Below, piece after piece: positions 2,104-29,756 of a stretch of 34,125 nucleotides of DNA. The notes beneath the pieces were generated by a model. That model made no database searches. It worked only from the letters and a program-made list of their open reading frames with translations, and was not told where the DNA came from. The DNA is from Lachnospiraceae bacterium (GTDB lineage Bacteria; Bacillota; Clostridia; Lachnospirales; Lachnospiraceae), in NCBI GenBank assembly GCA_017622795.1, contig JAGAQI010000088.1:1-34125 (forward strand), in the 5' to 3' direction. Positions within the stretch are counted from its first letter, which is position 1; every line of letters starts with the position of its first letter. Both the position numbers and the translations under genes were made by a program.

Positions 2104-2133
2104 TTGACGTGATAGATGGGTTAGTGTTATAAT
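2104..2133 (+). promoter_or_regulatory. Sigma-A promoter of the arabinofuranosidase/transport operon
   Basis: TTGACG (2104-2109) and a perfect TATAAT (2128-2133) are separated by 18 bases. The predicted start near 2140 leaves a leader of about 130 bases before the ATG at 2273. The rest of the 1879-2272 gap holds the divergent promoter, candidate operators and a structured leader; no small ORF with a ribosome binding site is evident. Confidence 0.75.
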
Positions 2134-2272: not shown

Positions 2273-3775
2273 ATGTTTAAATTATTTGTAAACACAAAAA
2301 GACAGATGGGTCACATCAACCCGGAACTTCAGGGTCACTTCTCAGAGCATCTGGGTCGTTGCATCTATGAAGGTATTTATGTAGGAGAAAATTCTGAAAT
2401 TCCTAATACAAACGGAATGAGAAATGACGTGGTTGCGGCCTTAAAGGAAATGAAGGTTCCTGTTCTTCGTTGGCCGGGCGGATGCTTTGCTGATGAATAT
2501 CATTGGAAGGATGGTATCGGTCCAAAAGAAAACAGAAAGAAAATGATTAACACCCACTGGGGCGGCGTAGTAGAAGACAACAGCTTCGGTACACATGAGT
2601 TTATGGAACTGTGTAAGCAGCTTGGCTGTAAGACCTATGTAAACGGTAACCTGGGTTCCGGTACCGTACAGGAAATGAGTGAATGGGTAGAGTATATGAC
2701 CTTCGACGGCGTTTCTCCAATGGCAAAGCTCAGAGAAGAAAACGGAAGTGCAGAGTCCTGGACCGTTGACTACTTCGGCGTAGGTAACGAAAACTGGGGC
2801 TGCGGCGGTAACATGACTCCAACCCACTATGCAAATGAATATAGAAGATATCAGACCTATGTAAGAAATTATCATAATGACCGCCCAATCTTTAAGATTG
2901 CCTGCGGACCAAACGTAGATGATTACAACTGGACAGACAAGGTAATGGATACCTGTTTCCAGGCGCCTGCATGGTTGCATGGTTTCATGGATGGTCTTTC
3001 CCTTCATTATTATACTCATCCGGGCGGATGGGAAAACAAGGGAAGTGCTACTGACTTCGACGAAGCAATGTGGTATCAGACCTTAAATAAGACCTTATAC
3101 ATAGAAGAGCTGATTAAACATCATGGTGCGATCATGGATAAATATGATAAGGAACACAAGGTTGGTATGATTATCGACGAATGGGGTACCTGGTTCGATG
3201 TAGAGCCGGGAACAAATCCGGGTTTCTTATATCAGCAGAACACCATGAGAGATGCTCTGGTAGCCGGAATTAACTTAAATATTTTTAATAAGCATTGTGA
3301 CAGAGTAAAGATGGCAAACATCGCACAGATGGTTAATGTATTACAGTCCGTAATCTTAACGGAAGGTGCCAAGATGATTCTTACACCAACTTACCATGTA
3401 TTTAAGATGTACAATTGTCATCAGGGTGCAGAACTGTTAGACAGCTATGTGGAAACTGTAAAGATTGGTACAGAAAAAGATCAGGTTCCAAACTTAACCG
3501 AATCCGTTTCCCTCGGTACCGACGGAAAGATTCACATCACTATGACAAACCTTTCCGTGAATGAAGCTTATGACATCGAGGGTCAGCTTGCTGAGGCAGA
3601 AGTAACCGACGTAAAGGGAACCGTTCTTGTGAACGAGATGCACGCCCACAATACCTTTGATGCACCTGAGGTTGTTAAGGCAGAAAGCTTTGATGGCTGC
3701 AAGGTAGTAGATAACAAGCTGGTGTTTACCATTCCGGCATGCAGTGTACTGCATCTGGAGGTTACTGTTAAGTGA
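2273..3775 (+). CDS. abfA: GH51 alpha-L-arabinofuranosidase
   Basis: A 500-residue cytoplasmic enzyme, the usual length for GH51, with no signal peptide. It removes terminal alpha-L-arabinofuranosyl units from arabino-oligosaccharides. The N-terminal half is the (beta/alpha)8 barrel: [16 protein letters not shown] near residue 21, [12 protein letters not shown] near 65, the acid/base Glu173 in GVGNENWG and the nucleophile Glu303 in IIDEWGTW. Residues about 385-500 form the C-terminal beta-sandwich. The ATG follows GGAGGAG at 2260-2265. It is the first gene of an operon that continues into transport genes with only 17 bases to the next ATG. It is probably induced by arabinose-containing glycans through the divergent regulator (inference). 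Confidence 0.95.
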
Positions 3776-3792: not shown

Positions 3793-6768
3793 ATGAAGTA
3801 TAAATGGTTGAAAAAATCAATAGCGCTGGCAACAATGTCTGCCGTCCTACTGCAGCCTTGTACTTACGTGCAGGAGGCATTTGCGGCAGAGGAAAGCGGC
3901 ACTGTAACAGAAAACGTTTCTTCCACCGAGTACAGTGTGGAGCGTCTGGCTACCGGTTATACCAAGGTGAGTGCAGAGTATACCGCACCAAAGTATGAAT
4001 ACAAAGGAGGAAATGTAGAATTCCAAATTGATAAGGTACTGGATAAAACCTATAGTAATATGCTTACCTCTGAAAATAAGGGATATGCAAATGATGTAGT
4101 GCAGATGACAGTTGGAGACACCATCGGTCTTACCGTGGATGTACCGGAAACTGCACTGTACTGGATTAACTTTGATTACCTTTCCAATGACGACTCCATT
4201 CTTCCGATTGAGTTGTCCTTCAAGGTAGACGGAGAGTATCCGTTCTATGAAGCAAGAAACTTAAAGTTTGAGACTACCTGGATTTCTGACGGCAAGGCAG
4301 ATATGGACCGTTACGGCAACGAAATCGTTACCATGCCGGAAAAAGATAAGCGCTGGGAAAGCAAGTATTTAATGGATGCCAGCTACCGTTATACTGAGCC
4401 TCTTTTGGTTTATTTAACCGAAGGTTCCCATAGCTTCGAAATTGCCATGGGAGAAGGTACTGTATTACTTGGCAACATTTCTTTAGTTGCTCCGACAGAA
4501 ATTCCGGAATATGTGGTTTCCAAGGAAGCACCGGGAGAAAATATTATTGAAATTGAAGCGGAAGATTTCTTTGAAAGAAATGACTCCTCCATTCATGCAG
4601 CCGGTGAATATGATTCGGCATTAAGTCCTGTTTCTGCGAAAGAAAAGGTGTTAAATATTTTGGATGGTGATTCCTTCAAAACAGCCGGTCAGACAATTTC
4701 TTACCAGTTTAATGTGACTGCACCGGGCTACTATTACATCGGTATGAACTACCGTCAGGGCGACAAAAATGACTTCCCGGTTTATCTGGATGTAAAGATT
4801 GACGGTGCGATTCCAAACGAAGCGTTCCGTTCTTATCCGGTGGCTTCCACAAAGGAATATAAAAATTCCACTCTTACCGATGAACACGGAAGAAACTTAA
4901 GCGTTTATTTAGAAGCAGGAGTACATACTATTTCCTTTACCATCAGTGCGGAAGAATTACGTTTTGCACTGGAAGCGGTAGATGAAATCATGAATGCAGT
5001 CAATGACTTATCTTTGGAGGTTACCAAGGTAGCCGGCAGCAATAAGGATAAATACCGTGACTTAAAGCTTACCAGATACATTCCTGACGTAGAGCATCGT
5101 CTGTATTCCTGGGTGGACCGTCTGAACGGTTTACTGGAGCAGGCAGCCGGTCTTCCGGGTGTAGAAGCAGAGAACGGTTCCGAGGTTGCAGCTTTTGCTT
5201 ATCTCGGTATTGCGGCAAAACAGTTACAGACTCTGGCAGAAGAGCCGGATGAACTTATTTACCGCGTGGATGAGTTGTCCAACAGCTCCAACTCCATCAA
5301 CACACAGATTGCAAACTTTGTAGATATTATCAATGACAACATTCTTTCCATTGACCGTATCTACTTATATCAGGAAGAAGCAGAACTTCCGGACGGCCTT
5401 GGATTCTTCCAGTCCATCTGGTTGGCAGTTAAGAGATTTTTCTTCTCTTTCTTCGGCCAGTCCTATTCTGCAACTAACGTAAATAAAGAACATATCCAGG
5501 TTTGGGTAAACCGTCCTCGTCAGTATGTAGAAATCATGCAGAAGATGATTGATGAACAGTTTACACCGGCCACCGGTATTGAGGTTGACTTATCCTTAAT
5601 GACCGATGCCAACAAGCTGGTATTGTCCAATGCTTCCGGCGATACACCGGACATTGCCACCGGTCTTAACTACGCACTTCCGTTTGAGCTTGGTACCCGT
5701 GGTGCACTGGTTGATTTAACCAAGTTCGACAATTATAAAGAAGTATTCGGCAGATACAGCGAAGGTATGCTGGTTCCGAGTGTTATCGGCGACGGTCTTT
5801 TCTCCCTGCCGGAAACCATGAACTTCTACGTTATGTTTTATCGTACCGATGTTTTGGAGAAGATTGGTTTAGAAATTCCGGAAACTATGGATGAGTTAAT
5901 CGCCATGCTTCCTGACTTACAGATGCGAGGATTAAATGTCTGTTACCAGACAGCACCGATGGCTGCCATGAGAAACTACCATGGTACCACACCACTGATT
6001 TTCCAGAACGGTGGCCAGTTGTATGGCAGAACGGCACAGGATTTACTGCTTGACAGTGAAGAATGTGTAGATGGCTTAACACAGTTAACCGAGTTGTTTA
6101 CCTTGTATGATTTGCCGGTAGACGTACCAAACTTCTATCAGCATTTCAGAAACGGTGACTTACCGGTGGGCTTTGCTGACTTCAACTCTTACAACCTGAT
6201 TTTAAATGCGGCTCCGGAAATTGCAAACTCCTGGGGCGTTGCATTGGTACCGGGTATTAAAGATAAAGAAACCGGCGAAATCAACCGTTACATGGCGGGA
6301 GGCGCCGAAAGTACCATCATGTTTAAGTCTGATGATGAAAGAGAACAGAAGGCTTGGCAGTTTATGGACTGGTGGTCCAGCGCCCAGGTTCAGGCAGAGT
6401 TCGGACAGATGCTTCAGATTATGTACGGTGATGAATACATTTGGCCAACCGCAAACTTAGAAGCGTTTGCAATGCTTCCGTTCCCAACTGCCGATAAGGA
6501 AGTGGTTCTGGAGCAGGCAACCTACATCTTAGAAGCACCAAGATTACTTGGCGGTTATATGTTAGAGCGTGAAATGAGTAACATTTTCAATAATGTTGTT
6601 GTAGACGGCGAAAATCTTCGTTCCCGTATCGATGACGCTGTAAAAATCGTAAACCGTGAAACCAGCCGTAAGCTGGAGGAATTCGGCTATATCGACAGTG
6701 AAGGCAATGTTATCAAGGAATACATCGTACCGTCTGTAGACACCGTACGTGAAATTCTTGGTCGATAA
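3793..6768 (+). CDS. Very large extracellular solute-binding protein with CBM-like N-terminal modules
   Basis: A 991-residue exported protein. The first 35 residues are a signal peptide ending AFA-AEE, with no clear lipobox. Residues about 40-235 and 245-400 look like two beta-sandwich carbohydrate-binding-like modules ([15 protein letters not shown], then IEIEAEDFF and VKIDGAIP). Residues about 405-530 are helical. Residues 537-557 are an aromatic, amphipathic segment ([14 protein letters not shown]). From about 567 to the end comes a family-1 sugar-binding protein ([49 protein letters not shown]). It presumably delivers a glycan to the permeases that follow. Normal binding proteins of this class are 400-550 residues, so this is nearly double. 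The start at 3793 is chosen over an upstream GTG at 3772 because AGGAG lies at 3780-3784. Confidence 0.85.
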
Positions 6769-6788
6769 GGGCAGAGAGGGGAAAAACA

Positions 6789-7706
6789 ATGAGTAAAAAG
6801 AAAACCTGGTCCAAGGTAGCCAGAAAATCACAACAGAATAAAGCCGGCTACGCTTTTTTGGGACCATACACCATATTGTTTGCAATCTTCATTGTGGCGC
6901 CGGTTGTTATGGCAGTTATCCTGTCCTTTACAAACTTTGATACCATTCAGTTTCCAAGCTTTGTAGGCTTCCTGAATTATATCAACTTATTGACCAGTGA
7001 TGAAGTGTTCATGCAGTATGTTTTACCGAACACTGTAAAATATGCGATTATCGTCGGTGTGGGCGGATATGTATTATCCTTCCTGCTGGCGTGGGCACTG
7101 GCTAACTTAACCAAGTGGCCAAGAACTATTTTAGCCTTGATTTTATATTCTCCGAGTATGACGGCCGGTGTTGCCATGTCCGTACTTTGGAAAATTATGT
7201 TTACCGGTGACCAGACTGGTTACATCAACAGCTGGTTGATGGAAATCGGCATCATCAATGAGCCGATTATCTGGCTGACCAGCGGCCAGTACTTACTTCC
7301 AATCGTTATTATCATCGGTTTGTGGAGTAGTATGGGGGTAGGCTTCTTATCCATCTTAGCAGGTCTCTTAAACGTAGACGAAAGCTTATATGAAGCAGCT
7401 GCCATCGATGGTGTTAAGAACCGTTTCCAGGAAATGATTTATATCACTATTCCTAGTATGAAGCCGCAGATGCTGTTCGCGGCCGTAATGCAGATTGTAG
7501 GTGCATTCCAGAACGGTTCCGTCAGCACCATGCTTGCCGGCAACCCGACACCGGGTTATGCGGCACAGCTTATCGTAAACCATATCGAAGACTACGGTTT
7601 CATCCGTTATGAAATGGGTTACGCAGCAGCGGTTTCCGTTGTGTTACTGTTAATTGTTCAGATATTCTCCAAACTGAGCGGTAAGCTCTTTGGCGAAAAT
7701 GATTAA
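6789..7706 (+). CDS. ABC sugar permease, MalF/UgpA type (importer 1)
   Basis: A 305-residue membrane protein with about six transmembrane helices. The cytoplasmic EAA loop that docks the ATPase starts at residue 202 (EAAAIDG, ending TIPSMKP). The basic N-terminus ([16 protein letters not shown]) lies in the cytoplasm. It is expected to form the translocation channel with the product of 7724-8599 and to receive substrate from the large solute-binding protein just upstream. Gaps to its neighbours are 20 and 17 bases. No ATPase gene is present in the operon. Confidence 0.93.
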
Positions 7707-7723
7707 GGAAGGAGGAAAAACAA

Positions 7724-8599
7724 ATGGCTGCATATAAGGGACATAGAATGAATCCTGATAAATTTGAAAAAGGTCAGATTAAGCTGTATCTGTTTGTAGT
7801 TCCTTTGGCCCTGATTACGGGACTTCCGATTGTGTACATCATTTTCCACGCATTTAAGCCGATGGAAGAGTTGTTCGCATTTCCGCCAAAGTTTATTACA
7901 ACCAACCCAACCCTGGATAACTTCCGACAGTTATTTAAGGCTTCCCGCGCAGCGGGTATTCCGCTTAGTAAGTATCTGTTTAACAGTGTACTTATTACCG
8001 TAAGCGTTGTGTTCTCCTCCATGATTTTATCTTCTGCAGCAGCATATGCCATGTCGAAGTTAAAGTTCAAAGGAAGAGACCTTATTTTCAACATCAACCA
8101 GTTGGCGCTGATGTTCGTACCGGTAGCAGTTATGATTCCAAGATACTTAGTAGTTGAGTTCCTTGGACTTACCGATACTTACTGGTCCCAGATTTTACCG
8201 CTGATTCCGCTTCCGGTTTCCGTCTTCCTGTTAAAGCAGTTCGTAGACACCGTACCGGATTCCTTAATCGAAGCGGCTTACATGGACGGTGCAACCGAAC
8301 TCCATGTATACTTTAAGATTATTATTCCGATGATCAAACCGGCTCTGGCCACCGCTGCAATCTTAGTATTCCAGCAGGTATGGAGCAACCTGGAGGCATC
8401 CAACTATTATATTAGTGATGAAGGCTTAAAATCGCTGGTGTTCTACATGAATACCTTGGCAAGTGCCAATGGTAACAGCGTAGCCGGTCAGGGTGTTCAG
8501 GCAGCGGCATCCTTGCTTATGTTCCTGCCAAACTTAATCCTGTTCTGCTTCTTACAGAATAAGGTTATGAATACCATGGCTCACTCCGGTATTAAATAG
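7724..8599 (+). CDS. ABC sugar permease, MalG type (importer 1)
   Basis: A 291-residue membrane protein with six predicted helices. The EAA loop at residue 183 (EAAYMDGATELHVYFKIIIP) and the C-terminal NKVMNTMAHSGIK tail are typical of MalG-like subunits of carbohydrate importers. It follows its partner permease by 17 bases and is preceded by GGAGG. Substrate is inferred from the locus to be an arabinose-containing oligosaccharide. Confidence 0.93.
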   Translation: MAAYKGHRMNPDKFEKGQIKLYLFVVPLALITGLPIVYIIFHAFKPMEELFAFPPKFITTNPTLDNFRQLFKASRAAGIPLSKYLFNSVLITVSVVFSSMILSSAAAYAMSKLKFKGRDLIFNINQLALMFVPVAVMIPRYLVVEFLGLTDTYWSQILPLIPLPVSVFLLKQFVDTVPDSLIEAAYMDGATELHVYFKIIIPMIKPALATAAILVFQQVWSNLEASNYYISDEGLKSLVFYMNTLASANGNSVAGQGVQAAASLLMFLPNLILFCFLQNKVMNTMAHSGIK

Positions 8600-8616
8600 T
8601 AAAGAGAGGACGACAC

Positions 8617-10674
8617 ATGAACAAGAAAGTAAAACAGCTTTTCGTCTCATTGTTGGCACTTCTCTTAACAATGGGATTTTTTGCAGAACCGGTGGCTGCT
8701 TTGGCAGACTCCCCGTATAAAACCTATACGGTAGACGGTTATGGTTCTGTTATTGAAACACAGACAGCCTATCTTCCGTACGGTACCATCAATAAAATCG
8801 GTGATGAAACCTTAAAGGCCCCAACGGATTTTACCATCTTAAGTGACGGTACCATGTATATCTTAGACAGCGGTAATAAGAGAGTACTGGTTACCGATAT
8901 CGAAGGAAATTACTACGGAAGCTTCGGTGAAGATATTTTTGTAAACCCGAGAGGTATTTACGTAACAGAAGACAGAATCTGTTATGTGGCAGACCGTGAT
9001 GCCAAAATGATCTGGGTATTTGACGAAAAGGGTACCCTGATTGCTTCCTACGACAGACCAACCGAAGCAATGTACGGCGAAACCCAGGACTTCTTACCGC
9101 TCAAAGTAGTGGCAAATAAGTCCGGTACCATTTATGCAATTTGTGAATCCAATACCAACGGTATTGTACAGATTTCTCCGGTAGATGACGGAACTTTTCT
9201 TGGTTACTTTGGTACCAATGCAACAGATCCATCTCTTTGGAGAATCATCTGGAGAAGCATTTTACCGGATTCCGCAAGAGCAAAAATGCTTGGTAACATT
9301 CCATCCACACCGGATAACATGGCTATCGATGAAAAGGGTATTATCTACACCGTAACCAGAGGCGAAGGTATGGATACCTTAAAGCGTTTGAACATTGCCG
9401 GTTCCAATATGTTAGAGCTGGAAAACGACGCTTACGATGATGTGCCAGCAGCGGTAACCACCGGTAACCACGACAACGTATACGTTGTATCCCAGCAGGG
9501 TTACATTTACGAATACACCAACGAAGGTGAATTACTCTTCGTATTCGGCGGCAGTGACGACGGTATGCAGCGTATCGGTCTTTCTACCAAGGCAGAAGCA
9601 ATTCAGGTAGATGATAATGATAAGATTTACGTACTGGACTCTGATAAGAAGCAGATTATTATCTACACACCAACCGAGTTTACCAATCATTTACATGAAG
9701 CACTGTATTTATTCTCCAAGGGCCGTTACACCGAAAGTAAAGAGCCATTAACCGAAGTGCTTCGTATGAACAACCTGTTTGATTATGCTAACATGGCTAT
9801 GGGCAAGAATCTCTTTAAGGAAGAAAATTACGAAAGCTCCTTAGAGTATGCAAGACTTGCCAAGGACTATGAAACCTATTCCGATTCCTTCTGGGAAATC
9901 AGAAATGTGTGGTTAAAGCAGAATCTGGCAACCGTATTTATCCTTTGCATCGTATTGTTTGTTGCAGTAAAGGTAATCGGTGCCTTGGACAAAAAGAAAC
10001 ATATCTTAGATCCTGTCAGAGCTTTGATTGATAAAATCAGAAGCAAGAAGTTAATCAAGCAGATGGGATACATGTTCTTCTTCATGAGACATCCGATTGA
10101 CGGCTGCTACGGCATCCGTAAAGAAGGCAGGGTTTCCGTACTCAGTGCCAACTGTCTGTTGGTAATCGGTATTGTGGAATACATTATCAATAAGTATTTC
10201 TGTGGCTTCCTGTTTAAGGGAGTAAGAGAAGGTGAGTACGACATCTTATCCGATATCGGATTTATTGTACTGGTTCTCGTACTGGTAGTAAGCTGTAACT
10301 ACTTAATGTGTACCATCAATGACGGTGAAGGTAAATTTAAGCATATTTACTGTTCCCTCATTTACAGCTTTGGCCCGTACTTAGTAATCCAGCCGGCACT
10401 GTTTGTATTGTCCCATGTGGTAACCGAAAATGAAGCATTCTTTGTAAGATTCGGTAATACTGCAATGCTTGCCTGGATTGGCGTACTGATTTTCTTATCC
10501 ATTAAGGAAATCAATAACTATTCCGTAAAGGAAACGGTAAAAATTATTGTCCTGACAGTATTTACTATTTTGATTGTATGTCTGCTGGCATTCATCATTT
10601 ATGTATTATCCTCTCAGGTAATTGATTTCGTTGAGTCTATTTTCAGAGAGGTGGTGTACAAGATTGGCAACTAA
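8617..10674 (+). CDS. NHL beta-propeller, TPR-like and Yip1 membrane protein
   Basis: A 685-residue protein with four parts. Residues 1-30 are a signal peptide. Residues about 50-335 are NHL-type propeller repeats facing outward (DFTILSDGTMYILDSGNKRV, AIQVDDNDKIYVLDSDKKQI). Residues about 350-425 are TPR-like helices (YLFSKGRYTESKEPLTEVL, ANMAMGKNLFKEENYESSLEYA). A transmembrane helix at about 437-457 leads to a Yip1-type domain with roughly five helices (about 490-680; MRHPIDGCYGIRKEG marks its start). It lies 17 bases after the first permease pair and overlaps the next gene. Such genes accompany large solute-binding proteins in Lachnospiraceae and Paenibacillus loci, but their role is not established. 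A scaffold or substrate-handling partner of the importer is inference. Confidence 0.8.
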   Translation: MNKKVKQLFVSLLALLLTMGFFAEPVAALADSPYKTYTVDGYGSVIETQTAYLPYGTINKIGDETLKAPTDFTILSDGTMYILDSGNKRVLVTDIEGNYYGSFGEDIFVNPRGIYVTEDRICYVADRDAKMIWVFDEKGTLIASYDRPTEAMYGETQDFLPLKVVANKSGTIYAICESNTNGIVQISPVDDGTFLGYFGTNATDPSLWRIIWRSILPDSARAKMLGNIPSTPDNMAIDEKGIIYTVTRGEGMDTLKRLNIAGSNMLELENDAYDDVPAAVTTGNHDNVYVVSQQGYIYEYTNEGELLFVFGGSDDGMQRIGLSTKAEAIQVDDNDKIYVLDSDKKQIIIYTPTEFTNHLHEALYLFSKGRYTESKEPLTEVLRMNNLFDYANMAMGKNLFKEENYESSLEYARLAKDYETYSDSFWEIRNVWLKQNLATVFILCIVLFVAVKVIGALDKKKHILDPVRALIDKIRSKKLIKQMGYMFFFMRHPIDGCYGIRKEGRVSVLSANCLLVIGIVEYIINKYFCGFLFKGVREGEYDILSDIGFIVLVLVLVVSCNYLMCTINDGEGKFKHIYCSLIYSFGPYLVIQPALFVLSHVVTENEAFFVRFGNTAMLAWIGVLIFLSIKEINNYSVKETVKIIVLTVFTILIVCLLAFIIYVLSSQVIDFVESIFREVVYKIGN

Positions 10675-12886
10675 TATGAAGAAAAAACTGATTTGCTTCC
10701 TTCTCACCTTTGCCCTTGGTCTTGTACCTGCAGCAGCACAGGCGGGCTCCTTAACTGCTATGGCAGCAAAGGAACCGGTGGCAACTGTCACAGACTGGAA
10801 GGAAACTCATAAAAAAATTGCAGAAAACAGCAAGTTCAATCTTTATGTATGTGAAGATGATTTATCCCTTGTTGTAGAAGATAAGGCAACCGGTCATTAT
10901 ATGGAGTCTTCTCCAAGTTATGATGACGGCGCCAACAATAAAACCTGGCAGGCGTATCTGTCCTCCGCCATCGTAATTACCTATATTCAAGGTAATACCG
11001 ATACCAAGCAGGCAGACTTGGTTAAGGATAATGTAAACAAAAAGATTACTTATACCGACAACGGTTTTGAAGCAGAGCTTTACTGGACCAAGTATAAGTT
11101 CGGTGTTACTTTAAAGGTAGAGCTTACCGAAGACGGTCTTAAAGCAACCGTTCCGGATTCTTCCATTATCGAGAATAGTGATACCTACATCGGAACCTTG
11201 GCAATTTATCCATGTATGGGTGTCTCCTATCTAGATCAAAAAGAAGGTTACATGTTCATTCCGGACGGTAACGGTGCTTTGATTTATCTGGAAGATAACG
11301 AAAAGCGTTTCAACACCGGTTATTCTTCCATGATTTACGGTGACGATATCGGTTTTACCGAATCCTCCGTGGCAAACCTGCTTTGGGGCAGATACGAAAT
11401 GTTAAATGACCAGAACCTGACAATCGCTCCGGTATACGGCATTGCCCATACCGACGATGAACTGGCATATTTGGCTATTGTGGAAGACGGTGCAGAACGT
11501 GCCACCATCGAAGCTCAGCCAAACGGTGTAAATGTTCAGTACAATCGTGCTTATGCAAAGTTCTTACTTCGTAAGCGTTACACACAGCCAACCAGTAATA
11601 ATTCCACATCCGGTTCCTTCCATCTGGTGGAAGCGGACAGAAGCCACTCCGATTTAACCGTGCGTTTCCTGTTCTTAACCGGTGAGGATGCAAACTACTG
11701 CGGTATGGCGAATGCATATCGTGACTATCTGCTTGACAGAGGCGATTTAGTGGTTCAGGAGGATAATTCCTACCGCACCCGTATCGATTTTCTGGGCACC
11801 GAGAGAGAAGAATTCTTAATCGGAACTAAAGCAGTTGCAATGACTACCGTAGAAGATATTTACGGAATCTATGAAGATTTAGCCGGTGTTGGTGTCACCG
11901 ACTTGTTCTCCCTTTATAAAGGCTGGCAGAAGGGTGGTCTCTATGACCTCCCAATCACCAGCTACAAAGCTGACAAGAACATTGGAAGCACAAAGGAATT
12001 AACACAGTTAATTAAGGATGCGGAAAGTAAGAATATTTCCTTCTACCTTTATAACGAAGCCCTCCGTATCAATCCGGATGAGCAGAATGCTACCTTCAAT
12101 GTAGTAAAGAAGGTAAACAAGAAGGTATTTGAAGAAAGCACCTATAAGGAGGTTTACTCCACCTTCCGTTTCTTAACACCAACCAGAAGTAACACACTTC
12201 TTAACAAGTTTGCAAAGAGCTATACCAAGCAGGGAGTAGACAACATTGCTCTTGCAGGTATTACAAATAATCTGTTTACTTACACTTACAGCAACGTGCC
12301 TTACACCAGATTCCAGGCAGCCGACACTTATGTAAAGGCGGTAGAAGAGCTGGATGCTTCCACAGACCTTGTCATGGAAGAGCCGTTTGCTTATCTTTGG
12401 AAGAATACAAAGGCATTCCTTGATATGCCGGTGTATATGTCCAACTACTTATACGAAGATGAAAGCGTACCGTTCTTATCCATCGTATTAAAAGGTGTGA
12501 TGCCGGTTTACGCAGATTATGTAAACTTTGAAGCAAATAAAGAAGAATTCTTCTTAAAGCTGGTTGAGACAGGAAGCTATCCTTCCTTCTATATCACAAA
12601 GGAGAGTGCGGCAGACTTAATCTACACAAACTCTTCTGATATTTACAGCTCCCAGTACGACGTATACAAGGATGAAATTATTCAGTATACAAATGAACTG
12701 AAGGCTGTGTATGATGCGGTTGCGGGAGCAGTGATTACCGGTCATAAGATTTTAGATAACGGTGTCCGTATTGTTACTTACAGCAACGGTACTCAGATTT
12801 ACTTAAATTACAGCAGTGCAGCCCAGACAGTGGATGGCGTGAGCATTGATACAATGTCCTATAAGGTGGTGGGCGCTAATGAGTAA
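10664..12886 (+). CDS. Exported DUF5696-type protein
   Basis: A 740-residue exported protein with an N-terminal signal peptide (LLTFALGLVPAAAQAG). Its layout resembles a large glycoside hydrolase: a beta-rich N-terminal half with YMFIPDGNGALIYLED, a middle barrel-like part (FSLYKGWQKGGLYDLP, ISFYLYNEALRINPDEQ, VDNIALAGITNNLFTY), and a beta-rich C-terminus. I match it by eye to DUF5696, whose function is unknown. Start choice: TTG at 10664 has GAGAGGTGG nine bases upstream, whereas ATG at 10676 is 21 bases from it. The TTG start overlaps the preceding gene by 11 bases, implying translational coupling. Whether it is an active glycosidase or a non-catalytic binding protein cannot be told from the sequence. 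Confidence 0.78.
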   Translation: MATNMKKKLICFLLTFALGLVPAAAQAGSLTAMAAKEPVATVTDWKETHKKIAENSKFNLYVCEDDLSLVVEDKATGHYMESSPSYDDGANNKTWQAYLSSAIVITYIQGNTDTKQADLVKDNVNKKITYTDNGFEAELYWTKYKFGVTLKVELTEDGLKATVPDSSIIENSDTYIGTLAIYPCMGVSYLDQKEGYMFIPDGNGALIYLEDNEKRFNTGYSSMIYGDDIGFTESSVANLLWGRYEMLNDQNLTIAPVYGIAHTDDELAYLAIVEDGAERATIEAQPNGVNVQYNRAYAKFLLRKRYTQPTSNNSTSGSFHLVEADRSHSDLTVRFLFLTGEDANYCGMANAYRDYLLDRGDLVVQEDNSYRTRIDFLGTEREEFLIGTKAVAMTTVEDIYGIYEDLAGVGVTDLFSLYKGWQKGGLYDLPITSYKADKNIGSTKELTQLIKDAESKNISFYLYNEALRINPDEQNATFNVVKKVNKKVFEESTYKEVYSTFRFLTPTRSNTLLNKFAKSYTKQGVDNIALAGITNNLFTYTYSNVPYTRFQAADTYVKAVEELDASTDLVMEEPFAYLWKNTKAFLDMPVYMSNYLYEDESVPFLSIVLKGVMPVYADYVNFEANKEEFFLKLVETGSYPSFYITKESAADLIYTNSSDIYSSQYDVYKDEIIQYTNELKAVYDAVAGAVITGHKILDNGVRIVTYSNGTQIYLNYSSAAQTVDGVSIDTMSYKVVGANE

Positions 12887-13925
12887 AAAAGAGAAAAAAC
12901 AGAAAAAACCAAAAATCAAAGTAGGTAAGCTGGAGAAGAGAGAGGCCAGAGCCGGTTACTTCTTCACATTACCTTGGGTCATTGGTGTAGTTGCATTCCT
13001 GTTGGTACCGCTTTGTCAGTCCTTTAAATTCATGTGGTACAACATCCGTATTACACCAAACGGAATGATTTTTAATCCGGTCGGAATCGGAAACTTTGCC
13101 AATATCTGGCACGAAGATCCGGAATTCCCGCAGCAGATTGTAACTTACATCTGGCAAACCTGCTTAGAGGTACCGATTATCATCGTATTCGCTTTGATGA
13201 TTGCCATCATGTTAAACGGAAAAATCAAGATGAGAGCATTCTTCCGACTGATTTTCTTCTTACCGGTTATCATCGTAAGTGGTCCGGTTATGAACATGTT
13301 GGTAAGTGAAGGTGCGGCAACCATTCCATCCATGAATGTACAGTCCATCGTAGCTGCTTTTGACGTATTCTTCCCAACCAGCGTGGCAAATTCCATCGGT
13401 GAGATGTTCTCTAACATGATTATGACACTCTGGTATTCCGGAGTTCAGATTCTGATTTTCCTTTCTGCATTGCAGAAGGTAGACCCGGCTTTATATGAAG
13501 CAGCAAAAATCGACGGTGGTTCCGGATGGGAATGCTTCTGGAAGATTACACTGCCAACCATGAAGCCAATGATTCTGTTAAACGCAGTATATACCGTTAT
13601 CTTCTTATCCAGTAACGAGCAGAACGTGTTGATTACCATGATTGAATCCGCCATGTTCTCCGGTACTAAGGAAAAGGGTTACGGTTACGCATCCGCCATG
13701 GCGTGGATGTATGCTTTAGTAATTACCTTGATTGTCGGCCTGTTTGCGTTAATGCTTGGTTCCAAGAAGGACGTATACGATAAGAAGGCTAAGAAGTTCA
13801 AGAAGTTACAAAAGAAAGAAGAAAGAATAAAAAAACGTGTAATAAGGAGGGGAGAACGTCATGCCAAGAAAGTCGCGCGCAACAAGCACAAGTACACAAC
13901 CTATGACGGTAGCGGAGACTATTAA
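12879..13925 (+). CDS. ABC sugar permease, MalF/UgpA type (importer 2)
   Basis: A 348-residue membrane protein with about six helices, a Lys-rich N-terminus and a Lys/Arg-rich C-terminal tail. The EAA loop begins at residue 207 (EAAKIDGGSGWECFWKITLP). The ATG at 12879 overlaps the end of the DUF5696 gene by 8 bases, and AAGGTGG lies upstream. It pairs with the permease at 13861. This pair is diverged from the first pair, which argues for a separate importer rather than a recent duplication. No ATPase gene accompanies it. Confidence 0.92.
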   Translation: MSKKEKKQKKPKIKVGKLEKREARAGYFFTLPWVIGVVAFLLVPLCQSFKFMWYNIRITPNGMIFNPVGIGNFANIWHEDPEFPQQIVTYIWQTCLEVPIIIVFALMIAIMLNGKIKMRAFFRLIFFLPVIIVSGPVMNMLVSEGAATIPSMNVQSIVAAFDVFFPTSVANSIGEMFSNMIMTLWYSGVQILIFLSALQKVDPALYEAAKIDGGSGWECFWKITLPTMKPMILLNAVYTVIFLSSNEQNVLITMIESAMFSGTKEKGYGYASAMAWMYALVITLIVGLFALMLGSKKDVYDKKAKKFKKLQKKEERIKKRVIRRGERHAKKVARNKHKYTTYDGSGDY

Positions 13926-14862
13926 GAAGAAGTTTACTAAAGAAAAGCTGCATAAGTTCATATTTGGTACGAGAGAGCGCCAGGGTCTTGGACAGCAGAT
14001 TGCCGTATACGGTCTCCTGATTATTATCGGATTCATCTTTATTTACCCGATTCTTTACATGATAAGCACCAGCTTCATGGATAGAAACGATTTGCTCGAC
14101 AGTTCCGTAAAGTGGCTGCCAAGCTCTCTTTACATTCAGAACTACATTGATGCTGCCAAGTCCATGGATTTCTGGAAAACCCTTGGTAAGGGCATCATCA
14201 TTGCCGGCGTACCGACACTTTTTAATGTGTTAACCGGTATGATTGTCGGCTACGGCTTTGCAAGATATGAATTTAAGCTTAAGAAGCTGTTTATGGGTAT
14301 CCTGTTGTTCTCCTATATTTTACCGGACCAGGTTACCATGATTCCTACTTATGTACTCTACAATGACATGGGAATACTCGGTACTATTTGGACCTTTGTA
14401 CTCCCGGCATTGTTTGGTAACGGAATAAATTCAGCGATTTTTATCCTGATCTTTTATTCCTTCTTTAAGCAGGTACCTAAGGTACTGATGGAAGCAGCGT
14501 ATATTGACGGTGCAGGCCATTTCAAGGCCTTCTTCAAGATTGCTATTCCGTCTGCGGTTCCTGCAATTATCACCGTATTCCTGTTTTCCTTTGTATGGTA
14601 TTGGAATGAATCTTACTTAACTGAGATGTATGTACAGGGTCTGGCAACCAAGAGCGAATGGACCAACCTGGTAATCCAGTTAAAGAACTTCGACTCCAAC
14701 TTCAGTACAAGGGCAACCACAGGTGATATGGCGACCTCATTAAATGAGTCGGTACGAATGGCGGCAACGTCCTTAAGTATTCTGCCGTTGTTCCTGATGT
14801 ACTTAGTTCTTCAGAGACAGTTCATCGAAAGTATCGACCGAACCGGTATCACCGGAGAATAA
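13861..14862 (+). CDS. ABC sugar permease, MalG type (importer 2)
   Basis: A 333-residue protein with six predicted helices and the EAA loop at residue 211 (EAAYIDGAGHFKAFFKIAIP). It has an N-terminal cytoplasmic extension of about 45 residues rich in Ser/Thr and Lys. The ATG is supported by AGGAGGGG at 13845-13852 and lies inside the end of the preceding permease gene, overlapping it by 65 bases. It should work with the 12879-13925 permease and the binding lipoprotein at 15098. Confidence 0.92.
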   Translation: MPRKSRATSTSTQPMTVAETIKKKFTKEKLHKFIFGTRERQGLGQQIAVYGLLIIIGFIFIYPILYMISTSFMDRNDLLDSSVKWLPSSLYIQNYIDAAKSMDFWKTLGKGIIIAGVPTLFNVLTGMIVGYGFARYEFKLKKLFMGILLFSYILPDQVTMIPTYVLYNDMGILGTIWTFVLPALFGNGINSAIFILIFYSFFKQVPKVLMEAAYIDGAGHFKAFFKIAIPSAVPAIITVFLFSFVWYWNESYLTEMYVQGLATKSEWTNLVIQLKNFDSNFSTRATTGDMATSLNESVRMAATSLSILPLFLMYLVLQRQFIESIDRTGITGE

Positions 14863-14866
14863 AGGT

Positions 14867-15068
14867 AACCAAGCATGAGAAACGTTTGGTAGAAAGCAGC
14901 TACGAAAGCTTGCTTTCGATAGATGATTTCTAACAAATGTTTTGAGGGCGCAGACCCGCTGCTTGCGAATTCGAAGAATTCGCAAGACCGGCTTGATTAC
15001 AAAGTAACTTAATAACCTTTCACAACGATCTTTACCCGCTGCCGGAACGAAGGAGAGCGGCAGCGGGT
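14867..15068 (+). promoter_or_regulatory. Chain of intercistronic RNA hairpins
   Basis: Four inverted repeats fill the gap between the permease and the solute-binding lipoprotein: ACCAA/TTGGT (14868-14890), CGAAAGC/GCTTTCG (14903-14918) within a longer imperfect stem (14890-14932), an 11-bp perfect stem CTTGCGAATTC/GAATTCGCAAG with a 3-nt loop (14962-14986), and an 11-bp GC-rich stem ACCCGCTGCCG/CGGCAGCGGGT (15034-15068). None is followed by a T-tract, so these are better read as processing or stabilising structures than as terminators. Such elements raise binding-protein mRNA relative to permease mRNA in other sugar operons. Confidence 0.6.
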
Positions 15069-15097
15069 GCGGATAAAAAGCTTTAAGGAGGCTAATT

Positions 15098-16705
15098 ATG
15101 AGAAAGAATTATTGGAAGAAGCTGTTAGTGTCCATGACATTAGTAGCAAGCATGCTCATTGGCGTAGCAGGCTGTGGCGGTGATACCACCGGCGATGCAA
15201 CACCAACTCAGGGCGCAACAAGCGGGGAGACAACCAACGATAAGAAGGATGACACCGCGAAAAAGGATCCTGTTAAGGTAGATCCTGTTAACGTTTTCGG
15301 TGATTACTATGTAACAACCGATAACATTACCTTAACTTACTGGCACTATGAAGATCAGGGTATGGCAGACAGAATGTGTGAAGCATTCATGGAACTGTAT
15401 CCAAACATCACTGTTGAGAACAAGGTTATCTCCGATATGAGTACTGACCTGTCCGCGGCAGCTGCAGCAGGTACTTTCCCTGACGTATTCGAAGGTACTG
15501 ACTCCGATACTGCTCTTGCAAATATGTACTGGGCAGACATCACAGAGTACTGGAATGCAGACCCTGAAAACAAGAACTTAATGCCAACTATCGATGAATA
15601 CGGTATTGGTATGTTCGACACTTCCGTTCGTTTCGCAGCTCCGATGAGATACTGGCCAAGTGCGATATTCATTGACAGAAACGTAATCGAAACCCTCAAC
15701 CTTGACATGCCACGTACCGACTGGACATGGGAAGAAATGATCCAGCTCATCAAGGATGCTACTCAGTACGATCCTGATATGCAGTACTTCGGACTTGGTT
15801 ACTACAACAGACTTGACTCCTTATACGGCATTGCAGCTGTATCCAAGGATGTTAGACAGATCAAGGGTGAATTCGGTTTCAACGGCGAAGACTTCGACCT
15901 TCAGTACTGGGCAATCGGTGAGCAGCAGTTCTCCGACCTCAAGCTTGCAGGTTATGTAGCTCCTCAGCAGTCCACTCAGGAAATGGAAGACTGGACAGGC
16001 GACTGGGATACATGGTTTGGTGCAACCGGCCGTGTAGCAGTATTCTCCGAAGGTTTCTGGACATACCAGAACTTATGGGGCGTTGAAGGCTACCAGGAAC
16101 AGTATGGTCTTGATATCGTTCCTTACGTTACTCCAAACGTAATCGACGAAAAGGAACACAACGTTATTTCCACTATGTACATGGGTGGTGTATCCACTTC
16201 CTGTAAGTATCCTTTAGAAGCTTACTTACTTCTTAAGTTCATGGGTTGGGGTATCGATGGTTGGAAGGTTCGTAACGAAATTTACGCAGACACCACTATC
16301 ACTAACGACTCCGGCACACCATTAAAGAACGCACAGATGCCTGTGCCTCTTACTCTGGATGAAACTGTTTGGGCAGGCTACAAGGCTCTGTTCCCACAGG
16401 ATGAAGACAGAAAGCCTTACTGGGATGACTATTTTGCAAGTATTACCCGTCCGGTTCCTTACGGCTGGTACAACATTGCAGGTTACTGGAACTTCTGTGA
16501 CCAGTACTTCAACAGCATCGGTATCCATGACTTAGTAGATAACGGTACTGCAAAGGCTGCTGACTACACCGAAGAAGCTACACGTCAGGCTAACTACTAC
16601 CATGCAGACGCTATGATTACTTACTTCGGACCAAGCGGCTACAACGTATTATCTGATGCTGAGCTTGCTAAGTATCAGGCAGTAGTTGATTCCTTCTTAA
16701 ACTAA
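15098..16705 (+). CDS. Sugar-binding lipoprotein of importer 2
   Basis: A 535-residue solute-binding protein. The signal peptide ends in a lipobox with Cys26 (GVAGCGG), so it is membrane anchored. A Thr/Lys/Asp-rich linker (about 28-62) leads to a family-1 binding fold: LTYWHYEDQGMADRMCEAF, AAAAAGTFPDVFEG, ESWT-like AVFSEGFWTYQNLWG. It lies downstream of the second permease pair after a hairpin-rich spacer, with AAGGAGG at about 15084. It is probably the high-copy receptor of importer 2, with an arabinan or arabinoxylan oligosaccharide as likely ligand (inference from neighbours). Confidence 0.9.
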   Translation: MRKNYWKKLLVSMTLVASMLIGVAGCGGDTTGDATPTQGATSGETTNDKKDDTAKKDPVKVDPVNVFGDYYVTTDNITLTYWHYEDQGMADRMCEAFMELYPNITVENKVISDMSTDLSAAAAAGTFPDVFEGTDSDTALANMYWADITEYWNADPENKNLMPTIDEYGIGMFDTSVRFAAPMRYWPSAIFIDRNVIETLNLDMPRTDWTWEEMIQLIKDATQYDPDMQYFGLGYYNRLDSLYGIAAVSKDVRQIKGEFGFNGEDFDLQYWAIGEQQFSDLKLAGYVAPQQSTQEMEDWTGDWDTWFGATGRVAVFSEGFWTYQNLWGVEGYQEQYGLDIVPYVTPNVIDEKEHNVISTMYMGGVSTSCKYPLEAYLLLKFMGWGIDGWKVRNEIYADTTITNDSGTPLKNAQMPVPLTLDETVWAGYKALFPQDEDRKPYWDDYFASITRPVPYGWYNIAGYWNFCDQYFNSIGIHDLVDNGTAKAADYTEEATRQANYYHADAMITYFGPSGYNVLSDAELAKYQAVVDSFLN

Positions 16706-16717
16706 TTTAAACTATAG

Positions 16718-16760
16718 TCCGGAGGGTGGGACAGTTCCGCGGGAACTGTCCGGCTCCGGA
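16718..16760 (+). promoter_or_regulatory. Nested intercistronic hairpin
   Basis: GGACAGTTCC (16729-16738) pairs with GGAACTGTCC (16742-16751), and outside it TCCGGAG (16718-16724) pairs with CTCCGGA (16754-16760). The following bases are A-rich, not T-rich, so termination of the operon is not expected. It probably protects the 3' end of the binding-lipoprotein message or attenuates read-through. Confidence 0.55.
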
Positions 16761-16793
16761 TAAAATAAAAAACAATAATGAAGGAGAAATATT

Positions 16794-19754
16794 ATGAAAA
16801 AGAGATTGTTAAGCGTATTATTATGCGCAGCAATGGCAGTTTCCATGATGGCCGGCTGTGGTGACAAGACTCAGACAACTGATCCTACACCAACAACCGC
16901 TCCAACACAGGCAGCTGACCCAACAGAAGCTCCTGCTGACCCAACAGCGGCTCCAACAGAGGCTCCTGCTCCAACAGAAGCTCCGGCAGGCGAAGCACTT
17001 CCGGATCCTGTTTACTACTTCCCATTTGACGATGCTACCGGCTTAAGCCCAAGAATGAACGGTGCAGGTTCCACTATGGATGAAAGAGTTTATCTTGCAG
17101 AGGGTAAGGAATTCCAGTTCACTAACGGTGTTAAGGGTAACTGTTTATGGTTAGACGGTACCTTTGGTGCACAGGTAGATGGTATTGAACCTTTAAACAA
17201 GGAAACTTATACCATTTCCTTCTGGACATGGGCTTCCAGACTTTCTAACTACAGTACAACACTTCAGTATGGTAACGGTATGGCTACCGGTGCAACAGAG
17301 CACTGGCTCAGCTTTACTACACTTGATACATCTGTAGGTTATCCTGCTATTTGGTCCAGATGGCAGCCGGAAACCGGCAACGTACAGCCATTCCCTTACT
17401 ATAAGGAAGATGGTTTCTATGGAAGAAAGAAATGGGCTCATTTCTGTTTAGTAGTTGATGAAACTGAAACTGTAGAAAACAGCGGTGCTGTTATTCTTAA
17501 GGCTCAGCTCTACATCGATGGTGTTCCATCTGAAAATGAAATTCAGGTAGTTCCTGGTGTATTCACTGGTGATAAGACTACTACAGACTGGAGATTCTTA
17601 ATCGGCGTTAACCCATGGGATAAGATTTTCAAGGGCGCAATGGATGAATTATACATCTTTGATGAAGCTTTAACTCCTGGTCAGGTTGCTACTCTGTATG
17701 CAGATGGTGATGGTAAGTCCGTTCCTGAACTTTCCACACTTCCTGAACCTGAAGTAATCAGAGATTACTCCGCACAGGTTGCTTCCGGTACTATGATTGG
17801 TAATCCGGATGGTACTTCCAAGTACGGTGATGCTTACTCCGAAATCGTTGAAGTTCCTGTAGGTGCTACTGTAGCATTTAAGTTCAAGAACTACATCAGC
17901 AGTAAGTTAAATGATGCAGGCAAGAATATTTACAGCTTCGCAGATACCTTCTCCTTAATTCTTCAGAATGTAGCAGAAGGTCACTCCACAGCAGACAATG
18001 CTGATTATAAGGAATATGCTGTTATCGCAGGTAGTGAAGGTTACGAATGGGCAGCTAAGATTTCTGACTTAAACGTAACAAGAAATACTTTCGATCAGTT
18101 TAACCCTGAAAAGTATACTATGGCCGCTGATGCAGCTAATTATACAGTAGCTATTACAAACTATGGTACAACTGCTAAGGTTGCTATTAAGGCAACTTGT
18201 GCAGATGCTATTGCACGTTATATTGATGTAGAAGAAATTCCGGTTGACGGTCCTCTTTACTACACATTAACAACTGCCGGCTGTGCAATTGATATTGCAG
18301 CTGATGATGCGGCTTGGGGCTGGATTGTTGGTAACTCTGATTGTACAACAGCATTCTGGGGCGCTCATTCCGATACTATTAAGGTAGAAGCAGGCACAAC
18401 AGAAAAGCTTCACTTCAAGAACTATACAACAGGTCTTAACAACTGGAACAACTATGTAGTTGTATTACAGAACATTCCTGGTGCTCATGCAGCAACAGAT
18501 ACAAACGGTTATAAGGAATACGGCGTAGTACGTGCCGACAACTATGGTTGGGGCGCAGGCTATGACGGAATTGCAGTAGCAGAAACTAACGTAGCTGACT
18601 GGGATGTATGGCGTTCCGAAATGAACGGTGCAGATGTTATCTTAGAAGTAACCAACAATGGTACAACAGCAGATGTATTTGCAACTGTTTATACAAAGGG
18701 CGGCACTACTTATACTCAGAAGTATACAGGTGTTGCAGTAGATGGCGATCTGTACTTCTGCTTAACAGTAGATGGCTCCTATGTTGAAATTCTTGGTACT
18801 CCTGTTGGTAATCCTGATAACTCTACAGGTTTCTGGGGAACACATTCCAACCCTGTAAAGATTGAAACAGGTGCAACAGAAAGAGTATACTTAAAGAACT
18901 ACTCCACAGGTGCAAATAACTGGAACAACTATGTTCTTGTATTACAGAACATTGCAAAGGATCATGCAGCAACAGATACAAATGGTTATAAGGAATACGC
19001 AGTAGTACGTGCCGACAACTATGGTTGGGGTGCTGGCTACGACGGAATTGCAGTAGCAGAAACTAACGTAGCTGACTGGGATGTATGGCGTTCCGAAATG
19101 AACGGTGCAGATGTTGTTCTTGATATTACAAACAATGGAGCAACAGCAGATGTATTTGCAACTGTTTACACAAAGAGCGGCACTGTTTATACTCAGAAGT
19201 ATACCGGTATTGCAGTTGATGGTGACCTTTACTACTGCTTCACAGTAGACGGTTCCTTCATCGACATCGTTGGTTCTTCTCTTGGTAACTTAGATAACTC
19301 CACAGGTTTCTGGGGAGCACATTCTGAGCCAGTTAAGATTGAAACCGGCGCATCCGCAAACATCAAGTTAAGAAACTACACAACCTGCGCAAACAACTGG
19401 AACAACTACGTAGTAGTATTACAGAACGTTGCAAAGGCACACAGTGCAGATATGGATGCTAACTACAAGGAATATGCAGTAGTACGTGCTGACAACTATG
19501 GTTGGGGCGCAGGCTATGACGGAATTGCAGTAGCAGAAACAACAGTAGCAGATTGGGATGTATGGCGTGCAGATATGAACGGTGCTCTTGTTGATATTAC
19601 TATTACAAATAATGGTACAACAGCAGATATCGTTGCTAATGTTACAACTACAACAGGTGCTACATATACACAGAAGTATACCGGTATTGCAATTGATGGC
19701 GACCTTTACTACTGCTTCACAGTAGATGGCAGCTCCATCGTATTCTTCGAATAA
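16794..19754 (+). CDS. LamG-domain lipoprotein with four C-terminal repeats
   Basis: A 986-residue surface lipoprotein. The lipobox is MAGC with Cys22. Residues about 27-66 are a PTEAP-rich wall-spanning linker. Residues about 70-305 match a LamG/concanavalin-like fold (YYFPFDDATGL, YTISFWTWAS, GAMDELYIFDEALTPGQVATLY). From residue 334 there are four modules: a diverged one of 177 residues (334-510) and three close copies at 511, 670 and 829 with an exact period of 159 residues. Each carries NWNNYV, ADNYGWGAGYDGIAVAET, WDVWR and ITNNGTTAD motifs. No catalytic signature is visible. It is the last gene of the transport operon and likely a glycan-binding surface protein (inference). The module family is not one I can name. 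Confidence 0.82.
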   Translation: MKKRLLSVLLCAAMAVSMMAGCGDKTQTTDPTPTTAPTQAADPTEAPADPTAAPTEAPAPTEAPAGEALPDPVYYFPFDDATGLSPRMNGAGSTMDERVYLAEGKEFQFTNGVKGNCLWLDGTFGAQVDGIEPLNKETYTISFWTWASRLSNYSTTLQYGNGMATGATEHWLSFTTLDTSVGYPAIWSRWQPETGNVQPFPYYKEDGFYGRKKWAHFCLVVDETETVENSGAVILKAQLYIDGVPSENEIQVVPGVFTGDKTTTDWRFLIGVNPWDKIFKGAMDELYIFDEALTPGQVATLYADGDGKSVPELSTLPEPEVIRDYSAQVASGTMIGNPDGTSKYGDAYSEIVEVPVGATVAFKFKNYISSKLNDAGKNIYSFADTFSLILQNVAEGHSTADNADYKEYAVIAGSEGYEWAAKISDLNVTRNTFDQFNPEKYTMAADAANYTVAITNYGTTAKVAIKATCADAIARYIDVEEIPVDGPLYYTLTTAGCAIDIAADDAAWGWIVGNSDCTTAFWGAHSDTIKVEAGTTEKLHFKNYTTGLNNWNNYVVVLQNIPGAHAATDTNGYKEYGVVRADNYGWGAGYDGIAVAETNVADWDVWRSEMNGADVILEVTNNGTTADVFATVYTKGGTTYTQKYTGVAVDGDLYFCLTVDGSYVEILGTPVGNPDNSTGFWGTHSNPVKIETGATERVYLKNYSTGANNWNNYVLVLQNIAKDHAATDTNGYKEYAVVRADNYGWGAGYDGIAVAETNVADWDVWRSEMNGADVVLDITNNGATADVFATVYTKSGTVYTQKYTGIAVDGDLYYCFTVDGSFIDIVGSSLGNLDNSTGFWGAHSEPVKIETGASANIKLRNYTTCANNWNNYVVVLQNVAKAHSADMDANYKEYAVVRADNYGWGAGYDGIAVAETTVADWDVWRADMNGALVDITITNNGTTADIVANVTTTTGATYTQKYTGIAIDGDLYYCFTVDGSSIVFFE
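17793..19751 (+). repeat. Four tandem protein-module repeats
   Basis: Module starts are 17793 (diverged), 18324, 18801 and 19278; the last three are spaced exactly 477 bases. The central part of modules 2 and 3 (about 18526-18640 and 19003-19117) is almost identical in DNA as well as protein, and module 4 is close. This points to recent duplication or gene conversion. Confidence 0.85.
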
Positions 19755-23109: not shown

Positions 23110-23129
23110 GCAAAAGAATGGAGGACATT

Positions 23130-27206: not shown

Positions 27207-27282
27207 TACTTTGTGAAATTCTACATGTACTTTTTTTAGATTCATGTAATGTCAGAGGAAAATGAAAAGGAGAGCAGAAAAG

Positions 27283-28176: not shown

Positions 28177-28224
28177 GAGGATAGAAGCAGGATATCTTAG
28201 ATTAAATAGAAGGAGTGATGAACG

Positions 28225-29217: not shown

Positions 29218-29233
29218 TACGGAGGTAGAGATT

Positions 29234-29707: not shown

Positions 29708-29756
29708 AGTAGAGCGGCATTTCCTGAAATGTGTGTCTACGAAAAAGGAGAAGAGT

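Follow-up and report, generated by a model that had tools for sequence, protein, structure and literature searches.

An eight-part gene cassette widespread in Bacillota is a candidate two-part ABC importer for complex glycans

Gene organization

The window, a stretch of 34,125 nucleotides from a Lachnospiraceae bacterium that probably lives in the gut (contig JAGAQI010000088.1), carries a same-strand run of genes (2273-24464) that begins with a GH51-type alpha-L-arabinofuranosidase and ends with the third of three GH43-type proteins (Table 1). For the first of these genes we take the family number to be GH51. Between them lie, in order, genes for a solute-binding protein (SBP1), permeases P1 and P2, an NHL-Yip1 membrane protein, a DUF5696 protein, permeases P3 and P4, a second solute-binding protein (SBP2) and a repeat lipoprotein. 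The gene content, order and strand that an initial annotation had proposed for 3793-16705 are borne out by a Pfam scan, as is the absence of an ATP-binding subunit, with no ABC ATPase domain among the 20 window proteins scanned.

Table 1. Features of the window, numbered from its first base
Feature	Position	Strand	Evidence or remark
Winged-helix regulator, ArsR/MarR-type, divergent from cassette	955..1878	-	HTH_24, E 1.8e-9
Promoter-like site TTGACG-18-TATAAT	2104..2133	+	11/12 match, with TG; possible cassette promoter
GH51-type alpha-L-arabinofuranosidase	2273..3775	+	Alpha-L-AF_C, E 2.1e-54
SBP1 (core component)	3793..6768	+	SBP_bac_1, E 4e-22
Aromatic/hydrophobic 19-residue segment of SBP1, ahead of SBP domain	5401..5457	+	Ser-Phe in second half nearly invariant (SBP1 alignment A2)
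P1 permease	6789..7706	+	BPD_transp_1; dedicated subfamily; EAA loop
P2 permease	7724..8599	+	permease domain match; EAA loop; C-terminal SGIK tail
NHL propeller, TPR-like, TM and Yip1 membrane protein	8617..10674	+	NHL and Yip1 matches
DUF5696 protein	10664..12886	+	PF18952, E 1.9e-175
DUF5696 Gly codon, equivalent of GH129 nucleophile Asp	12257..12259	+	column assigned by eye
DUF5696 Glu-Glu at GH129 acid/base motif columns	12377..12382	+	hhalign alignment
P3 permease	12879..13925	+	dedicated subfamily; EAA loop; long basic C-terminal tail
P4 permease	13861..14862	+	EAA loop; C-terminal TGI tail
SBP2 solute-binding lipoprotein	15098..16705	+	SBP_bac_8, E 1.2e-6; lipobox by eye
Repeat lipoprotein	16794..19754	+	5hon match, E 2.4e-9; three 477-nt repeats; lipobox by eye
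Three GH43-type proteins	20003-20986, 20997-23075, 23118-24464	+	Glyco_hydro_43, best E 1.9e-63

The DUF5696 gene begins at a TTG (10664) preceded at a distance of 9 nt by AGGTGG, and it shares 11 nt with the Yip1 gene. The P3 gene begins at an ATG (12879) that has AAGGTGG at the same distance before it, and it shares 8 nt with the DUF5696 gene (both junctions read by eye). Both overlaps had been claimed in the initial annotation. An alternative DUF5696 start is the in-frame ATG at 10676, directly past the Yip1 stop.

Promoter-like sites of the type listed in Table 1 number 34 compared with 36.5 expected from shuffles, and the one preceding the cassette is therefore weak evidence taken alone. 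Upstream of it, at 2056-2069, is the sequence TGTAAGCGCTTTTT (found by eye), which we take to be cre-like and which suggests catabolite control. An RNA element was dropped as a candidate feature because a search with Rfam gave no match anywhere in the window. The divergent regulator consists of an ArsR-like winged helix fused to approximately 230 residues of no assigned family. Elsewhere in the window, the AT-rich region 27262-30968 (about 35-38% GC) shows strong GC skew and encodes a WYL-type regulator, a small lipoprotein, and two family-less proteins with similar N-terminal halves.

Distribution of the cassette

Using profiles that combine the window proteins with related sequences, we examined three sets of loci for an eight-part core, SBP1-P1-P2-NHL-Yip1-DUF5696-P3-P4. 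The first set holds 48 other DUF5696 matches above 300 bits from a draw of 150 family genomes, the second 55 other matches above 480 bits from a draw of 398 phylum genomes, and the third, a named collection, the best 80 of 487 DUF5696 records among the matches listed. The third set consists of the best matches to the window DUF5696 and so leans to the arabinan type; the titles of these best 80 of 487 include Lachnospiraceae, Oscillospiraceae, Ruminococcus albus and Aquibacillus salsiterrae. The arabinan cassette is also carried by Lachnoclostridium phytofermentans strain KNHs2131 (L155). Together the sets give 177 distinct DUF5696 loci, six of which occur in two sets. A locus was judged where at least 7.8 kb upstream and at least 2.6 kb downstream of DUF5696 were present, which leaves 132 distinct loci.

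The whole core is found in 122 of the 132 judged loci. A further 15 loci are complete with shorter flanks and 30 are not judgeable. By set, 41, 34 and 68 cores are complete, 1, 9 and 0 incomplete, and 6, 12 and 12 not judgeable (the third set being the best 80 of 487). The ten exceptions comprise one locus with P3 in two pieces (L050), one with P2 in two pieces (L113), and eight that have no SBP1-P1-P2 nearby. NHL, Yip1 and P4 are present at all 132 judged loci, and so is P3, which is split into two ORFs at one. No DUF5696 gene occurs apart from permeases at any judged locus, and this possibility was dropped. The accessory genes might have turned out to sit mostly apart from permeases; the neighbourhood survey proposed in the initial annotation instead favours its inference that the accessory proteins belong with the importer. 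Gene order is altered in 7 of 137 complete distinct loci, all of which keep the set whole: six read NHL-Yip1-DUF5696-P3-P4-SBP1-P1-P2 and one has P3-P4 first. Another permutation, DUF5696-P3-P4-NHL-Yip1, is seen in the cassette at L294.

The same association is apparent across genomes. The same 31 of the 150 family genomes contain NHL-Yip1 (above 100 bits), SBP1, and DUF5696 (above 300 bits), and the best NHL match outside these 31 is 44.6 bits. In the phylum draw DUF5696 exceeds 480 bits in 37 genomes, every one of which also contains SBP1 above 600 bits. SBP1 exceeds 600 bits in 40 genomes, and the assemblies of three of them (G229, G253 and G303) have no DUF5696 match. Their SBP1 contigs are short (3,112, 3,788 and 4,307 bases), so the rest of the cassette may be unassembled; still, these genomes count against mutual dependence of the parts. 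Five more genomes of this draw match the SBP domain only, at 307-331 bits. These searches scored at most three DUF5696 and two SBP1 candidates per genome in the phylum draw and at most seven NHL-Yip1 and five SBP1 candidates in the family draw, and copy numbers per genome are taken from separate genome-wide counts, not from the presence searches.

The arrangement is far beyond chance, and a chance neighbourhood was dropped as an explanation given the intact cores and the co-occurrence in both draws. Co-inheritance of the cassette genes can, however, mean co-regulation without contact. The parts belong to known families. We searched the open-access literature and found no account of a conserved double-importer architecture with a shared half and dedicated accessory proteins; the initial annotation had put the system forward as its best candidate for an undescribed machine.

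Permeases, binding proteins and energy supply

SBP1 with P1 and P2, and SBP2 with P3 and P4, each have the composition of a CUT1-type ABC importer: a solute-binding protein with paired BPD_transp_1 permeases, an EAA loop in each permease for contact with the nucleotide-binding domain, and an ATPase elsewhere in the genome. The EAA loops are kept in all four permeases, with the Glu in 95-98% and the Gly in 99-100% of 160, 160, 181 and 175 sequences, some loci counted twice (for P1, 98% and 99%, n=160). In addition, P2 and P4 have C-terminal tails. In B. subtilis, EAA loops and the permease C-terminal tail are linked to MsmX docking, and one ATPase is common to several importers (PMC5730181). 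Most ABC operons of C. phytofermentans carry no ATPase according to PMC4452783, which proposes a multitask ATPase, and PMC12838199 describes an A. bescii strain that lacks msmK and fails to consume oligosaccharides. In the genome of the window, UgpC/MsmX-type ATPases are encoded on three other contigs: two that score above the NF008653 cut-off on C5, one below the cut-off on C56, and a partial one on C4. Dependence of the cassette permeases on a shared ATPase, of the MsmX-like kind that the initial annotation had noted for other importers, is plausible given the loops and the ATPases on other contigs.

P1 and P3 belong to dedicated subfamilies. In ten genomes the P1 type is present in 15 copies for 15 DUF5696 loci at 431-507 bits, with the next permease at 183 bits, and P3 types score 291-427 bits in cassettes, with the next permease at 159. 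Both types are restricted to cassettes in those ten genomes. Across 72 cassettes the best-conserved permeases are P1 and P2, with median identities of 52% and 47% compared with 36% and 37% for P3 and P4. In the same cassettes, identity correlations for P3 are 0.62-0.71 compared with 0.84-0.89 among SBP1, P1 and NHL, shared ancestry being uncontrolled in these values; the lower values for P3 count against a single machine.

SBP1 is more than a plain solute-binding protein, as over 550 residues precede its SBP domain (residues 580-868). The protein consists of an N-terminal CBM35-like region, a helical region, an aromatic segment, and the C-terminal SBP domain, for which a profile search gives Lin1841 (5ysb, E 5.3e-32) as the closest structure. 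CBM_35 is matched in 4 of 13 SBP1 homologues and the window's own SBP1 has no match; a profile match also relates the N-terminal region of SBP1 relatives to 5x7g. The aromatic segment is a possible membrane or partner contact.

SBP2 is probably a substrate-specific solute-binding lipoprotein. Of ten SBP-sized genes that lie first or second past P4 in other cassettes, eight match SBP_bac_1 and were missed by the SBP2 profile, and two have no SBP match.

Stand-alone modules and the case for two halves

The four genomes that hold the eight loci lacking SBP1-P1-P2 (G189, G211, G284 and G314), together with two that have contig-cut loci (G250 and G389), were followed by reading all strong SBP1 loci. 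G231 also has contig-cut loci of similar look and was left out of this six-genome reading. Each of the six genomes contains exactly one stand-alone SBP1-P1-P2 module (at L265, L270, L273, L277, L278 and L283). G211 has ten DUF5696 loci, three joined to SBP1-P1-P2 and seven not, plus its stand-alone module; G314 has eight, three joined and five not; and G389 has a single unjoined locus beside its module. The pattern is similar in G250, G284 and G189, although contig ends cut off part of it, and one locus of G189 (L263) consists partly of N. When SBP1, P1 and P2 of 34 loci are concatenated and placed in a tree (no support values), the stand-alone modules cluster with L118, a rearranged full cassette. 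The modules at L270 and L277 share a similar row of downstream ORFs (404, 233-261, 179 and 360 aa).

The simplest reading of these modules is that SBP1-P1-P2 would be a common half needed by substrate-specific halves. The stand-alone copies possibly do something else, in which case their retention beside module-less cassettes needs another reason. A broader alternative is that the cassette encodes two CUT1-type importers that work independently on different arabino-oligosaccharides and have only their regulation in common, with NHL-Yip1 and DUF5696 helping one or both and no cross-dependence. Both permease pairs look complete, with EAA loops in each and one solute-binding protein per pair, so each could work alone, and an ATPase common to several importers is known from B. 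subtilis (PMC5730181). The three phylum genomes with SBP1 and no DUF5696 match point the same way. However, independent importers are expected to be lost independently, and the retention of SBP1 in 37/37 genomes with strong DUF5696 and the modules that accompany module-less cassettes in 6/6 genomes both speak against this. The confinement of P1 and P3 types to cassettes in ten other genomes is likewise at odds with it. On balance we consider two independent importers unlikely.

Accessory proteins

Judging from profile comparisons, DUF5696 is an exported relative of the GH129 and GH101 glycosidases that does not conserve their catalytic pair. The profile built from 12 DUF5696 proteins matches 8rzk (E 3.4e-10), 5opq (E 3.7e-10) and 5wzn (E 6e-8). 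We compared it using hhalign with ten proteins from family genomes whose profile spans nearly all of 5wzn (E 1.3e-300) and which we take to belong to GH129, in agreement with their PF11308 matches. The alignment (Prob 98.4, E 6.4e-15, 575 columns) shows homology over the N-terminal, barrel and C-terminal parts. A hydrophobic segment is found at the N-terminus of 171 of 182 DUF5696 proteins; it is of mixed type, and those classed as lipoboxes were sorted only roughly, with false positives among them.

The YLDVFTC and SSEE motifs, which presumably supply the nucleophile Asp (in YLDVF) and the acid/base Glu in GH129, are kept in 10/10 of the GH129 relatives. In DUF5696 the nucleophile-equivalent column has Asp in 46/173 and Gly in 85/173 proteins, and the first acid/base position has Glu in 91/173. 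Asp and Glu occur together in 6/173, Asp with either Asp or Glu in 20/173. In 26/173, each column has a carboxylate no more than two residues away. The nucleophile column was obtained by shifting the automatic alignment by eye, a choice that favours the catalytic reading; the unshifted column is likewise not conserved. Acidic residues are kept in at least 85% of DUF5696 proteins at columns 215, 242, 288, 389, 613 and 649 (window ORF numbering).

DUF5696 thus retains the fold homology and seems to have lost the catalytic site, and since the pair is generally missing, the protein probably binds or positions glycan and does not cut it. Activity is possible in some members given the 20/173 with both acidic residues. 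That DUF5696 is instead an active tethered glycosidase with NHL-Yip1 as its docking site, which would make the cassette an importer plus one more enzyme, draws on the GH129/GH101 homology and on the Glu-Glu at the acid/base columns of the window protein. However, the window protein has Gly at the nucleophile column, where 46/173 members have Asp, and the motifs constant in the GH129 relatives are not conserved here; we consider this explanation quite improbable, and an active enzyme was dropped as the main reading.

Weaker matches to the DUF5696 profile sit in further genomes. Twelve were taken and ten scanned, those below 30 bits being left out; eight have Glyco_hydro_101 above cut-off and two are shorter DUF5696-like proteins (L212 and L213; 560 and 584 aa, 181 and 166 bits). 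An open-access literature search on DUF5696 found nothing.

In the NHL-Yip1 protein a signal-like N-terminus is followed by a propeller and a TPR-like part, and the C-terminal third carries hydrophobic segments. The NHL domain scores 33.6 bits against a cut-off of 20 and the Yip1 domain (PF04893) 38.1 bits against a curated cut-off of 28.6. NHL and TPR matches were also obtained among PDB structures, and a simple hydropathy scan marks five hydrophobic segments past residue 430. NHL and Yip1 are fused as a single gene at 123 places and NHL is a separate gene at 46, some relatives having two adjacent genes; the fusion too ties NHL to Yip1. Nothing relevant was found in the open-access literature on Yip1 with ABC transporters or NHL.

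Homologues of the divergent regulator are found at 40 of the 80 named DUF5696 loci (best 80 of 487) and at none of the 40 first family loci; their presence at the named loci makes it possibly an arabinan-responsive regulator. A further, quite improbable reading of the cassette is that SBP1-P1-P2 with NHL-Yip1 and DUF5696 acts as a sensor coupled to transport, which would signal that glycan is bound and thereby govern expression or the assembly of surface enzymes. The large extracellular binding parts and the adjoining regulator gene could be cited for it, but the regulator accompanies just those 40 named loci and no signalling domain was matched in the window cassette proteins.

Glycan substrate

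The window cluster appears to be an arabinan-type example of the cassette. The GH51 and GH43 proteins and a domain that resembles the C-terminal region of 5hon, an extracellular arabinanase, suggest arabinan as the substrate. This domain is located in the repeat lipoprotein, followed by three 477-nt direct repeats that are 73-88% alike. The lipoprotein looks like a glycan-binding protein, not a transporter part, and is a probable surface arabinan binder. CBM65 proteins adjoin some other cassettes.

Ten neighbours of other cassettes, picked by size, comprise three CBM65, two GH3, one GH10, one GH2 and one GH35 protein and two with no obvious link. These varied neighbours and the SBP_bac_1-type SBP2 proteins show one core deployed alongside genes for different glycans.

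Discussion

We consider it somewhat more probable than otherwise (roughly 0.6) that the cassette encodes one functional importer, widespread and built of eight core parts, in which a common and a glycan-specific ABC half would be assembled with an extracellular scaffold. This reading is based on the composition of the cassette, its near-perfect co-occurrence, the dedicated permease subfamilies, the stand-alone modules, the EAA loops, and the non-conserved catalytic residues. The common half would be SBP1 with P1-P2 and the glycan-specific half P3-P4 with the variable SBP2, each depending on the other. On the extracellular side the NHL-TPR propeller, with Yip1 as its membrane anchor, and DUF5696 would link the two; DUF5696 probably binds or positions glycan and does not cleave it. 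Surface hydrolases and the glycan-binding lipoprotein would make and hold oligosaccharides, which SBP2 and the CBM-bearing SBP1 might then pass inward to the permeases. MsmX-type ATPases encoded elsewhere would drive both permease pairs.

More tentatively, the four permeases and two shared ATPase dimers could form a two-engine supercomplex, in which an SBP1-P1-P2 motor plugs into interchangeable NHL-Yip1-DUF5696-P3-P4-SBP2 adaptors. A GH129-like barrel without catalytic activity and the propeller might then form a surface port, perhaps feeding long chains between the halves.

The closest known kind of system is the MsmX-dependent CUT1 importers of B. subtilis (AraNPQ, YtcQ-YtcP-YteP). In contrast to these, the cassette has two dedicated permease pairs, an SBP1 that carries a CBM, and NHL-Yip1 and DUF5696 as constant partners, and its common half is sometimes encoded apart. 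DUF5696 is homologous throughout to the GH129-type alpha-N-acetylgalactosaminidase (5wzn) and 3,6-anhydro-D-galactosidase (5opq). However, it is exported or anchored and does not conserve their nucleophile and acid/base pair, and the strong members examined sit in cassettes. The 4F2hc/SLC3 heavy chains of animal amino-acid transporters combine an inactive glycosidase-like ectodomain with an N-terminal membrane anchor and a transporter partner. The N-terminal hydrophobic segment of DUF5696, present in 171 of 182 and of mixed type, may be such an anchor, and its ectodomain may be inactive, judging from the residues. Any likeness would be an analogy of design only; 4F2hc is GH13-like, DUF5696 is GH129-like, and no kinship is shown. 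In SusCD-type uptake in Bacteroidota, surface glycan-binding proteins, hydrolases and an importer are encoded in one locus, as binding proteins, hydrolases and importer are in the window. However, SusCD relies on an outer-membrane TonB-dependent porin, whereas the window locus has ABC permeases; neither a TonB-dependent SusC nor a SusD lipoprotein family was found among the 20 window proteins scanned.

If the proposed reading is correct, a large set of Bacillota, among them fibre degraders of the gut and rumen, would import complex glycans by a shared multi-part importer that annotation shows only as separate permeases and proteins of unknown function. The DUF5696 and NHL-Yip1 proteins would gain a role, and such importers could be counted in metagenomes by a marker. 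It would also raise the question of why one ABC importer would need another.
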